Shown piece after piece: positions 9,263 to 61,144 of a stretch of 64,000 nt of DNA. A program made the translations under genes and the position numbers. The stretch comes from Halopelagius inordinatus (GTDB lineage: Archaea; Halobacteriota; Halobacteria; Halobacteriales; Haloferacaceae). The stretch spans positions 1,054,001 to 1,118,000 of the forward strand of contig NZ_FOOQ01000001.1 of assembly GCF_900113245.1 (NCBI RefSeq), given 5' to 3'. Under the pieces are notes generated by a model. That model was not told the origin of the DNA. It did no database searches and saw only the letters and a list, made by a program, of their open reading frames with translations. Position 1 is the stretch's first letter; each line of letters starts with the position of its first letter.

Positions 9263-9540
9263 GATTGGTAGTTGCGTACTGTGTCGATGACGGCGTCTGC
9301 CACCGTCAGGTTGACCACGGCGTCGTCCACCGTGGACTGCAGCCCGCCCGTCGTCTCCCGTTCGATGGTCGTCGTGAGCGTCTCACCCTCGACGACCATC
9401 CGGATGGAGTCGGTGTTGTCCGGACGGAGCGACGCGGCCACCGCGTCGGCGGCGTCGTGCGTCGTCCGGAGGCGGGCCGACCGAGACTCGACGGCCCCGG
9501 CCGTTCCGTTCTCGCGTTCGTTCTCGCTTCGGTTCGTCAC
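9259..9540 (-). CDS. pcc1: KEOPS complex subunit Pcc1
   Basis: This small dimerising subunit of the KEOPS complex makes N6-threonylcarbamoyladenosine at position 37 of ANN-reading tRNAs. The 93-residue product from a GTG at 9540 has the Pcc1/LAGLIDADG-like fold signature: an alpha segment TTHDAADAVAASLRPDNTDS, strand RMVVEGETLTTTIERE and a C-terminal helix TVDDAVVNLTVADAVIDTV. The GTG is preferred to longer reads because it forms a GTGA overlap with the stop of the RecJ-like gene upstream; downstream it overlaps S3Ae by four nt. Both overlaps point to a coupled operon. Confidence 0.88.
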   Translation of the reverse strand: MTNRSENERENGTAGAVESRSARLRTTHDAADAVAASLRPDNTDSIRMVVEGETLTTTIERETTGGLQSTVDDAVVNLTVADAVIDTVRNYQS

Positions 9541-11222: not shown

Positions 11223-11461
11223 TGTTGTTCGGTTGGAACGGCACAGACCGCAGAAATACGCGACTGGCGACTGACCGCGACCGGTCGAGCGCCACACTTC
11301 CGCAATCCCAAGCCGCGCGAGGCGCGGCGAGTCAGATTTGCGGCCGTGCTGTTCCCGTGTGAGTCCATCCGTGCGCCGCGGAAAAGGGTTGCGACCCGCG
11401 TCTCGTCTCCGAAAGTCGAAGGCCTTAATACCGACACCAGAAAAGCAGAGAGTGCGTCCGA

Positions 11462-11533
11462 GGGCTCGTAGATCAGTGGTAGATCATCCCCCTGGCACGG
11501 GGAAGGCCCCGGGTTCAAATCCCGGCGAGTCCA
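11462..11533 (+). tRNA. tRNA-Ala(GGC)
   Basis: The 72-nt cloverleaf has acceptor GGGCTCG paired with CGAGTCC plus discriminator A, D arm GATC..GATC, anticodon arm TCCCC-CTGGCAC-GGGGA with anticodon GGC, and T arm CCGGG-TTCAAAT-CCCGG. The third acceptor pair is G-U, the alanine identity element. CCA is not encoded. A TATA-like CCTTAATACC lies at 11423-11432. Confidence 0.96.
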
Positions 11534-38132: not shown

Positions 38133-38205
38133 CGGGCGTGGCGGGATTCGAACCCGCGATCGAGAGGTTAGGAACCTCTCGCCCTGTCCACTAGGCCACA
38201 CGCCC
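38133..38205 (-). tRNA. tRNA-Arg(CCT)
   Basis: The minus-strand cloverleaf of 73 nt has acceptor GGGCGTG paired with CACGCCC and discriminator G, D arm GCC..GGC, anticodon arm AGAGG-TTCCTAA-CCTCT with anticodon CCT, and T arm GCGGG-TTCGAAT-CCCGC. A TATA-like TGTTTTAGCC (minus, 38228-38237) lies about 27 nt upstream. Confidence 0.96.
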
Positions 38206-58009: not shown

Positions 58010-58441
58010 ATGACGGTCCGCGTTCGCCGGGCGTTCGAGTTCGATGCACCGCCGGAGCGAATCTGGAATTTCATCTCCGACCCGGGAAAGCGGGCCGACG
58101 CCATAAGCGTCGTCGAGAGTTACGAGGTCGCGGAGGGGTCGAACCGGGCGACGTGGGAGGTCAGCCTCCCGATTCCGTTCTTGAACTCCACCGCGTCGGT
58201 CGAAACCGAAGACGTCGAGTTTGACCCGCCGCGGCACGTCAAGTTCGTCGGCAAATCGAAGGTGATGCGGGTCACCGGCGAACACACCGTAGAGGAGATA
58301 GACGGCGGCACGAGACTACTGAACGAGTTCGTCGTCGACGGCCGGGTTCCCGGCGTCGAGCGATTCTTCAAGCGCAACCTCGACCAAGAACTCGACAACC
58401 TCGAAGCCGCACTCCGCCGAGAGACCGAACGCCCGGCGTAA
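58010..58441 (+). CDS. SRPBCC/CoxG-like lipid-binding-fold protein
   Basis: This 143-residue START-like (SRPBCC) protein starts MTVRVRRAFEFDAPPERIWN. The helix-grip layout is clear: a first strand, the E-R-I-W-N helix with FISDPGKRADAI, a beta sheet VESYEVAEGSN to VTGEHTVEEIDGGTRLLNEF, and a C-terminal helix RNLDQELDNLEAALRRE that closes the cavity. Such proteins bind hydrophobic ligands or act in carbon-monoxide dehydrogenase maturation (CoxG); no such genes are near. It follows DUF7123 and ends just before the hairpin-rich gene-free stretch. Confidence 0.85.
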   Translation: MTVRVRRAFEFDAPPERIWNFISDPGKRADAISVVESYEVAEGSNRATWEVSLPIPFLNSTASVETEDVEFDPPRHVKFVGKSKVMRVTGEHTVEEIDGGTRLLNEFVVDGRVPGVERFFKRNLDQELDNLEAALRRETERPA

Positions 58442-58506
58442 ATCGGACGGTTTCGGCGGGCTTAGTGATACGTTATGTCCGTGGTCTGTCGCGAAACGCC
58501 CGGAGG

Positions 58507-58515
58507 GTTTATTGG
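58507..58515 (+). promoter_or_regulatory. TATA-like box preceding the hairpin-rich region
   Basis: GTTTATTGG is centred 26-27 nt before 58538, where the outermost stem of the hairpin array begins. CGAAAC, a BRE-like motif, lies ten nt further up. The position fits transcription of the array from the plus strand. Confidence 0.45.
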
Positions 58516-58537
58516 TACCCGTCGTTTAAGCTGAATT

Positions 58538-58799
58538 GCCGACGCCCGACGCTTTTCTCGTCGAGAGTCGGCACAACCCGCCGCACCACGCCGTAGTGCA
58601 CGGGGTCCACTACGGCACGCGACGACGCCACGGCGTCACCCGCCGTCTCCGACCCGGCGGAGGCGGTTTCCACCTCCCTTCGCCTCTCGCCCGGCAGGGC
58701 TACGCCAGCCTACTGCCGACTCGCGCGCCGCCCCCATCCGGTGGCGGCGCGCGACCCTTTCACACGTCCTTCCTTCGAGCGACGACCGCCAACGTCGGC
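58538..58799. ncRNA. candidate structured non-coding RNA, strand uncertain
   Basis: About 262 nt are closed by a stem GCCGACG (58538-58544) with CGTCGGC (58793-58799). Inside are a 9-bp hairpin (58590-58598 with 58608-58616), an 11-bp hairpin (58722-58732 with 58743-58753), CGACG/CGTCG at 58547-58551/58559-58563, and an 8-bp hairpin at 58659-58677. In that last stem one pair is C-A on the plus strand but G-U on the minus strand, which favours a minus-strand RNA, while the TATA box favours plus. A further stem (58814-58824 with 58842-58855) follows. It lacks the GAAAGUC and ACAGAA cores of RNase P RNA and the SRP helix-8 signature. Confidence 0.45.
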
Positions 58800-58888
58800 T
58801 TAGTCACTCGATTCTCGTACCGCGCCCCCTTCCTCGATTGACGCGGTAACACGAGAGTATTCGGCCGCGAAAAACGAGCGGCGAGCAG

Positions 58889-59353
58889 TTAGAACGGGCT
58901 ATCGCTGGCCGAAATTTCGTAGTGGTCAACCTCGCTTGCATCGCCGGGATACATCGCGTCGAACTTCCACTTCCCGCCGCCTTTCAGGTCTTGGGTATTG
59001 TCGAGACCGTCTTCGAGTTTCACGTCGTCGGCGTCGTAGAACGCTACCTCGACTGCGACGTAGCTAATCGTCTCGTCCGTCGTGTTTTCGACGATTCCGG
59101 TTACGCCAGCGCTGAAATCCTCCTCGTAGAATTCGTCCTCGTTGATTTTCAGTGCAGACTCGGGTTCAGGCGTCGCCGTCTCCGTCGGGGTCGGTTCCGT
59201 CGTCGGTTCGGATGTCGATCCCTCGGTAGGTTCGGGCGTCGATTCGTCGGCGTCGCCCGAACTCGAATCGTCCGGTTCGCTCGAACCGGAACAGCCAGCA
59301 AGACCTGTTACCGACGCAGCACCTACGCATGCAATGAATTTCCGTCTATCCAC
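58889..59353 (-). CDS. FxLYD-domain Tat lipoprotein
   Basis: This 154-residue secreted lipoprotein starts from a GTG: DRRKFIACVGAASVTGLAGC gives a twin-arginine signal and lipobox. Residues 25-65 are a Glu/Pro/Thr/Ser-rich tether. The FxLYD-type beta sandwich follows: INEDEFYEEDFSAGVTGIVENTTDETI, then VAVEVAFYDADDVKLEDGL and KWKFDAMYPGDASEVDHYEI. Such domains are common on haloarchaeal surfaces without known function. Base composition of this gene is slightly more AT-rich than its neighbours, perhaps a mild sign of transfer. Confidence 0.8.
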   Translation of the reverse strand: MDRRKFIACVGAASVTGLAGCSGSSEPDDSSSGDADESTPEPTEGSTSEPTTEPTPTETATPEPESALKINEDEFYEEDFSAGVTGIVENTTDETISYVAVEVAFYDADDVKLEDGLDNTQDLKGGGKWKFDAMYPGDASEVDHYEISASDSPF

Positions 59354-59533: not shown

Positions 59534-61060
59534 TCAGTCGTCCTGCGTCTTGATGTCCGCAGAGAGACCCTGCGCCATCTGGATGTCCTTCGAGTTGTTG
59601 AGCGTCCACGCGGTTCGCTCTGTGACCGCTTCGATGACCTCGCGGGCCGAGGGGTAGCCGTTTCCGGACTTCTTGACGCCGCCGAACGGGAGGTGGACCT
59701 CCGCGCCGATGCACGGGAGGTTCCCGTAGGCGAGTCCGACCTCCGCGTGGTCGCGGAAGTAGTTTATCTGCCGGTAGTCCTCGGAGATGATGGCTCCGGC
59801 GAGTCCGTAGTCGGTGTCGTTGTGAATCTCGACTGCGTCCTCGATGTCGCCGGAGTACTTCAAGAGGGCGACGTGCGGACCGAACACTTCCTCGTGGGTG
59901 CACCGCAGGTCCTCGTGGGGGTCGGCCTCGTAGACGAACGGACCGACCCAGTGGCCGTCTTCGTGCCCCGCCGGAATCTCGTCGTCGTCGAGTTCCGTCC
60001 GGTCGACGAGGACGTTCACGTCCTCGCGTTCGGCGAGTTCGTTGTACTCCGTGACCTTCTCTTTGTGGCCGTCCTCGATGAGGGGCCCCATGAACGTATC
60101 AGAGTCGAGAGGGTCGCCGACGGAGACGTTCCGCGCCGTCTCGACGAACCGCTGTTTGAACTCGTCGTAGACGTCCTCGTGGACGACGAGTCGTTCCGAG
60201 GAGACGCAGCGTTGTCCGGTGGTCTTGAACGACGACATGACGGCCGAGTGGACGGCGACGTCTAAGTCCGCCTTCTCGGTGACGACGATGTTGTTCTTCC
60301 CGCCCATCTCGCAGGCGGCGAGTTTGCCCGGTTCGCCGCCGACTTTCGAGGCGATTTCGTGGCCGACTTCCGCCGACCCGGTGAAAAGAACCGTGTCGAC
60401 GCGGGAGTCCTCGACGACGGCGGACCCGGCGTCGCCGAAGCCCTGCACCATGTTGAACACGCCGTCGGGAATGCCCGACTCCTCGAACATCTCCGCGATG
60501 ATCTGACCGCACCACGGCGTCTGTTCTGCGGGTTTCCAGACGACGACGTTCCCCTCGACGAGGGCGACGGCCATGTGCCAAAACGGGATGGCGACGGGGA
60601 AGTTCCACGGGGTGATGCAGCCGACGACGCCGCGCGGTTTCCGGCGCATGTACGCGTCCTTCGCCGGGATTTCGGAGGGGACCACGTCGCCTTTCGGGTG
60701 GCGGGCGTCGCCCGCGGCCCACTCGACCATGTGCCACGCCTCGGTGACGTCGGCTTTGCCTTCGCTTATCTCCTTGCCGCACTCTTTGGTGACGACTTCG
60801 CCGAGTTCCTCGTGGCGTTCTTTCAGTTCGTGGTAGATATCCCAGAGATACTCCGCGCGGTCGATGTGCGAGAGGTCGCGCCACTCCTCGAAGGCGTCTT
60901 CCGCGGCCGCGAGAGCCTCGTCCACGTCGGATTCTGTGCCGCGGCGGAACTCGCCGAGCGATTCGCCCGTCGCGGGGTTCTCGCTCTCGAACGTCTCGTC
61001 TCCGGACCCGTCCGTCCACTCGCCGTCTATGTAGTGGTTGTAGACTTCGTCACTCACCAT
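59534..61060 (-). CDS. aldehyde dehydrogenase, probable 1-pyrroline-5-carboxylate dehydrogenase
   Basis: This NAD(P)-dependent aldehyde dehydrogenase (508 aa) has PWNFPVAIPFWHMAVALVEGN (cofactor entry), LFTGSAEVGHEIASK, the general base Glu in ACEMGGKNN near residue 252, and catalytic Cys285 in TTGQRCVSSERLVV. KKSGNGYPSAREVIEAVTE is near the C-terminus. The neighbouring proline dehydrogenase gene at 61921 makes glutamate semialdehyde (P5C) the likely substrate, completing proline to glutamate. On sequence alone other aldehydes are possible. The ATG at 61060 (MVSDEVYNHYIDG) is the family start. It diverges from the Bat-type regulator 116 nt away. Confidence 0.85.
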   Translation of the reverse strand: MVSDEVYNHYIDGEWTDGSGDETFESENPATGESLGEFRRGTESDVDEALAAAEDAFEEWRDLSHIDRAEYLWDIYHELKERHEELGEVVTKECGKEISEGKADVTEAWHMVEWAAGDARHPKGDVVPSEIPAKDAYMRRKPRGVVGCITPWNFPVAIPFWHMAVALVEGNVVVWKPAEQTPWCGQIIAEMFEESGIPDGVFNMVQGFGDAGSAVVEDSRVDTVLFTGSAEVGHEIASKVGGEPGKLAACEMGGKNNIVVTEKADLDVAVHSAVMSSFKTTGQRCVSSERLVVHEDVYDEFKQRFVETARNVSVGDPLDSDTFMGPLIEDGHKEKVTEYNELAEREDVNVLVDRTELDDDEIPAGHEDGHWVGPFVYEADPHEDLRCTHEEVFGPHVALLKYSGDIEDAVEIHNDTDYGLAGAIISEDYRQINYFRDHAEVGLAYGNLPCIGAEVHLPFGGVKKSGNGYPSAREVIEAVTERTAWTLNNSKDIQMAQGLSADIKTQDD

Positions 61061-61144
61061 GATGACTGTGTCTAGGAGACGCCGTAATAACCCACATCCC
61101 GTCCATGGACGGGAGGGCCGGTCCGACGTCTTGCTGATAGTCAA

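Follow-up and report, generated by a model that had tools for sequence, protein, structure and literature searches.

Comparison among haloarchaeal genomes leaves little doubt that a conserved non-coding RNA gene lies in a gene-free gap of the Halopelagius inordinatus chromosomal contig NZ_FOOQ01000001.1. The gap spans positions 58442-58888 (447 nt) of the window, by which we mean the whole 64,000-nucleotide stretch of DNA that was analysed, and it lies 3' of an SRPBCC-family gene. The comparison brought out a predicted promoter and transcript start belonging to the RNA itself, compensatory change in two hairpins (H1 and H2) and an invariant loop in H1; the element is confined to Halobacteriales and keeps a syntenic position. 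A first-pass annotation had proposed a candidate undescribed structured RNA at this place, and the lack of an Rfam family match, the strong covariation and the conservation of the syntenic gap all uphold that proposal. Of the extent it gave, 58507-58855, the conserved core at 58538-58667 (+) stood and the interval as a whole did not.

On each strand the region folds more stably than every one of 100 dinucleotide shuffles (z = -4.6 for plus and -6.2 for minus), in keeping with the dense stems described for the gap. These values exceed those measured in 14 other gene-free stretches of the window (z +1.7 to -2.7, with one exception at -4.3), a comparison set that was drawn from a crude gene map and left out four longer stretches. 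An outer stem (58562-58573 with 58714-58725) had also been thought to close the structure. Its 5' arm takes up the 3' arm of H1, which pairs inside H1 and shows compensatory change there when haloarchaea are compared. Chance is therefore the most likely origin of the outer stem; we rejected it as a closure of the RNA, since it would unpair H1 and is unsupported.

Promoter, hairpins and covariation

H1 is a 5'-terminal hairpin at 58538-58572 on the plus strand (GCCGAC..CGACG-CUUUUCU-CGUCG..GUCGGC), which we characterized by loop counts and stem covariation. Its loop read CUUUUCU in 59 of 67 anchored elements and CUUUUCA in the other 8/67 (CUUUUCW), and the two pairs closing the loop showed no variation in these 67 elements. 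Because MAFFT alignment of H1 alone over all families put the lower stem out of register, we used the loop and the ends as anchors for the stems; as such anchoring selects pairable elements, we placed weight on a structure-blind MAFFT alignment of 24 sequences, which was used for H1 and H2 covariation. In that alignment 96.5% of H1 and H2 cells were paired and 12 of the 20 pairs had changes on both sides (for H2, 99.5% of cells and 8 of 9 pairs). Double-changed cells numbered 42; the mean over shuffles was 10.5, sliding the partners left 0-5, and RNAalifold recovered the same H1 and H2 helices unprompted. Over 58 order-wide sequences we counted 139 double-changed cells, in an alignment that was model-fitted and so biased towards structure. 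Compensation was visible in individual lineages as well, such as the GGCG/CGCC stem of H1 in Haloferax.

We aligned 48 non-redundant loci on H1 to examine the sequence ahead of it. A TTTAT box occupied -30 to -26 with 1.2-1.85 bits per column, beginning at -30 in 40/48 loci, and was preceded by a BRE-like G/C-rich stretch at -36 to -31; in the window these correspond to a GG-rich BRE (CCGGAGGG) and TATA box (TTTAT) at 58500-58512 (+). A TA promoter-proximal element lies at 58527-58528 (+), that is at -11/-10 from the predicted start, with T or A at -11 in 45/48 loci and A at -10 in 42/48. Position -1 was a pyrimidine in 47/48 loci, and the bases between these elements showed little conservation. 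Matched loci share a layout in which some 26 variable bases separate the TTTAT box from H1, and the TATA box noted earlier 26 nt ahead of the first stem is indeed present. Haloarchaeal promoters are established to carry a BRE, a TATA box and a TA element, and by this pattern the predicted promoter is of the canonical, textbook haloarchaeal type. The transcript probably starts with the base that opens H1 (G58538) or within 1-2 bases of it. A start at G58538 fixes the plus strand and means that the RNA begins directly with the hairpin.

The transcribed strand had been called unclear. Promoter direction makes it very probable that the RNA is transcribed from the plus strand, to which the wobbles in H1 and H2 also point, since they read as G-U on that strand (GU:10 at one H2 pair; UG:5 and UG:6 at other pairs; 24 sequences). 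The same wobbles bear on whether the stems, which could equally be DNA inverted repeats, form a cluster of protein-binding or replication-related palindromes with no functional RNA. The covarying stems often have G-U on the plus strand, which palindromes in DNA do not favour, and the distance from the TATA box to H1 is fixed; we regard this explanation as extremely improbable.

Beyond H1, a C-rich linker at 58573-58589 (+) carries a CCGCCGCACC motif that is conserved among loci, and motif enrichment found CCGCCGCA in 11/53 loci compared with 0.9 expected from shuffles. H2 follows at 58590-58616 (+) as a hairpin of GCCGUAGUG with CACUACGGC, its loop ending in GGGGUC; this loop is found in Haloferacaceae, and GGGGUCC was enriched among the 53 loci. 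Sequence and individual folds indicate a small hairpin in the interval between H2 and H3 (58624-58637, +), where other genera have stems of different sequence. H3, at 58642-58667 (+), has the loop ACCCGG. A CCCGG-loop hairpin stands at the matching place in most loci that bear H2 and in most of those from Haloferacaceae, and in some other families it occurs with different stems, while GCCCGG was present in 21/53 loci against 5.9 expected. The H2 and H3 loops are both invariant, and in many of the lineages compared no H2 or H3 of the present definition was seen. Hairpins 3' of about 58690 were common only to one congener and are not family features. Two of them, at 58692-58718 and 58721-58754 (an inverted repeat; both +), perhaps belong to the transcript of this genus as its 3' portion; in the DNA search, congener G001 matched 58444-58797 at 86%.

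At six loci from several families (L044, L046, L110, L114, L117 and L118), CTCGCTGCTCGGCCAC was common within about 120 nt 3' of H1, together with a UCCGGA-loop hairpin such as GGCUGUCCGGACAGCC. These perhaps represent the local counterpart of H2 and H3 in those families.

Distribution and genomic address

A DNA search of 99 relatives returned matches in 38, centred on 58537-58616; one locus from this search, L030, proved a false match. Nearly all loci from the 38 relatives adjoin the same SRPBCC gene (58010-58441, + in the window). The pattern of TATA box plus H1 was found in 300 of 392 Halobacteriales genomes, compared with approximately 37 for the reversed pattern (counted by hand). In a phylum-wide sample, which we divided by our own count into Halobacteriales and others, the H1 core was present in 72/81 and 11/312 genomes, respectively, and the reversed control gave 13 in the others; the matches in other classes, no more numerous than this control, were rejected as chance. 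Seven of the nine Halobacteriales misses belong to genus g13 or family f14, whose inspected members carry a divergent but pairing element, with upper H1 stems that escape the pattern and still pair (GACG/CGUU in g13; AGCG/CGCU in f14). The element was present in 15 of 15 Haloferax species examined, and named records that carry it include Haloferax, Haloplanus and Haloquadratum walsbyi. A covariance model built from the 24-sequence alignment found elements in families absent from its training set. It scored the window locus at 88.3 bits and the next match in the genome at 27.1, so we consider the gene to be single-copy.

Several matches elsewhere were set aside. Plasmid records had no match to the element. 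A 17-base core occurred in 66 viral contigs, of which only two fitted the promoter-plus-hairpin pattern, each apparently by chance, and a Verrucomicrobia MAG (L105) matched the pattern and not the covariance model. Loci L043, L048 and L049 contained the core without the promoter. In genus g44 of family f17 (G075, G121 and others), the element is apparently absent while the SRPBCC-nitrilase neighbourhood is kept, and this apparent absence offers a natural loss open to study.

The SRPBCC gene is the conserved upstream neighbour, in synteny at almost every Haloferacaceae locus and at many further loci. On the other side, locus comparison identified a convergent aldehyde dehydrogenase (ALDH) gene (59534-61144, -), and the usual site of the RNA gene is between these two; the same layout recurs in other Halobacteriales families, beside the SRPBCC gene, the ALDH gene or both. 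Neighbours this stable could suggest a leader or 3' UTR element acting in cis on one of them, a reading we find very improbable and largely refuted by the element's own conserved promoter, the convergent ALDH gene and the lack of any same-strand gene following it in the window. Other genes also often intervene between the RNA gene and the SRPBCC gene, and in family f17 no SRPBCC match was found near it. A cis-regulatory leader was likewise rejected as an RNA class, as the downstream genes are convergent and none in the window lies on the same strand. In genus g89 (L047) the ALDH gene starts approximately 60 nt after H1, so that any shared function must rest on H1 and the pyrimidine-rich tail, which may together be the minimal unit.

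Between the RNA and the ALDH gene of the window lies a small lipoprotein-like gene (58889-59353, -). Neither the congener locus nor the other loci compared matched it, and it is probably a local insertion.

Coding potential, known RNA classes and novelty

The spacing between H1 and H2 took values of 15, 16, 17, 19, 21, 23, 24, 33 nt and above, and the locus has single-base indels between congeners. Because spacer lengths ignore multiples of three and such indels occur, we take the locus to be non-coding; on the same grounds, a 101-codon TTG frame in the gap was dismissed as chance. A search of the gap against Rfam 15 returned no family at the gathering threshold, and permissive settings gave two chance matches (E >2), the better at 19.5 bits compared with a 50-bit cut-off. 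The covariance search proposed in the first-pass annotation thus matched no family, and its companion proposal, inspection of the syntenic gap in other haloarchaea, found the gap conserved with compensatory changes in its stems.

As a multi-hairpin RNA with an ACA after H1 in the window, the element might belong, in divergent form, to one of the known classes (RNase P, SRP RNA, or a box C/D or H/ACA guide). RNase P RNA (RF00373) had no match in the window and has a genome copy at G000:C9:12578-12970, while archaeal SRP RNA (RF01857) had no match in the gap and has its copy at G000:C1:957497-957807, in agreement with the earlier remark that the universal cores of both are missing here. The C box RUGAUGA of box C/D guides was not conserved (TGATGA in 0/53 loci), and the ACA box 3' of the hairpin that would mark an H/ACA guide varied among loci (ACA, ACG, ACU, AAC, AGC). 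With no Rfam family reaching threshold either, membership of one of these classes seems hardly credible. The element instead has the marks of a trans-acting small RNA gene: it has its own predicted promoter, is free-standing and is non-coding.

Small RNAs of Haloferax volcanii were reportedly predicted by Babski in 2011. Catalogues for this species now list hundreds to thousands of sRNAs, among them intergenic ones such as sRNA132, s479 and s194 (PMC3956466, PMC6490895, PMC5892119). Like the RNA described here, these intergenic sRNAs are free-standing, have BRE/TATA promoters and are thought to act in trans. Of 27 sRNA genes tested by deletion, however, 22 had no counterpart outside H. volcanii and just 3 had one in over 10 further haloarchaea (PMC3956466), whereas the present RNA is near universal in haloarchaea; it may be listed anonymously in the Haloferax catalogues. 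HVO_2908s and H3.2, sRNAs of H. volcanii and Halobacterium salinarum found in extracellular vesicles and reported without sequence (PMC10927574), resemble it in being intergenic, conserved between distant haloarchaea and unassigned in function, and one of them may be the RNA described here. A metatranscriptome study also reported 22 intergenic ncRNAs common to several Halobacteria, with function unassigned (PMC7002113).

Clade-wide, single-copy structured RNA genes are otherwise exemplified by SRP RNA (RF01857) and RNase P RNA (RF00373), neither of which the locus matches. The S15-Halobacteria leader (RF03143) is likewise a haloarchaea-specific structured RNA, but it acts in cis before a ribosomal protein gene and differs in structure and context. 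A literature search by motif, gene context and sRNA name found no description of the element as a conserved family, and it appears to be new as a family defined by structure and range. Non-coding RNAs conserved throughout an archaeal class are rare once the classic housekeeping RNAs are set aside, and the haloarchaeal sRNAs known so far are mostly species-specific; the element would add a new family to Rfam. Its predicted start, covarying structure, invariant loop and fixed address in culturable Haloferax make it directly testable.

Proposed role and neighbouring observations

We think it probable on balance that the element is a single-copy, independently transcribed, stable non-coding RNA that acts in trans and whose H1 loop is mainly bound by protein. 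Action in trans is, as a single component, quite likely, since the downstream genes are convergent and no same-strand gene follows. A hairpin flush with the 5' end would shield the RNA from 5' decay, giving it stability and probably high abundance. The core functional site would be the CUUUUCW loop, exposed and closed by two invariant pairs; this loop is predicted to serve as a binding platform, most likely for a conserved RNA-binding protein. The archaeal Sm-like protein binds U, and it is one candidate partner. Contact of the G-rich loop of H2 with the CCCGG loop of H3, or of either with a partner, is conceivable, and kissing between the two loops (GGG with CCC) is possible.

We give the H1 loop about an even chance of being chiefly a protein site and consider an antisense seed a somewhat unlikely use of it. 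Protein binding is favoured on two grounds, both of them weak: the closing pairs vary no more than the loop does, and the loop's complement is unenriched. The perfect complement, CGAGAAAAG, did not exceed its reversed control in most of eight genomes; G084 was the clear exception (12 compared with 2), and a short seed would leave little genome-wide trace, which makes the result a weak one against pairing. As a whole-molecule account, a trans-acting antisense sRNA would pair with mRNAs through its CUUUUCW loop or through the C-rich linker and CCUC-rich tail, and so control their translation or decay. The invariant exposed loop, the enrichment of the unpaired motifs CCGCCGCA and CCACCUCG, and the regulation of mRNAs in trans by Haloferax intergenic sRNAs (PMC6560208, PMC6104027) argue for it; given the complement counts, we hold it to be unlikely. 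More tentatively than the protein-bound, trans-acting RNA that we prefer, we also propose that the element may have a housekeeping role throughout the haloarchaea. It would then be an unrecognised RNA whose breadth resembles that of SRP RNA or bacterial 6S RNA, would scaffold an undescribed ribonucleoprotein and would have arisen with the haloarchaea.

Other RNA features of the window were also recorded. A stretch at 9263-9536 (-) is gene-free, has an unusually stable fold (z -4.3) and gave no Rfam match; it may represent a leader, or a gene that was missed. A member of a known family, the S15-Halobacteria ribosomal protein leader (RF03143, 81 bits), lies at 11294-11358 (-), and tRNA genes are present at 11462-11533 (+) and 38133-38205 (-).
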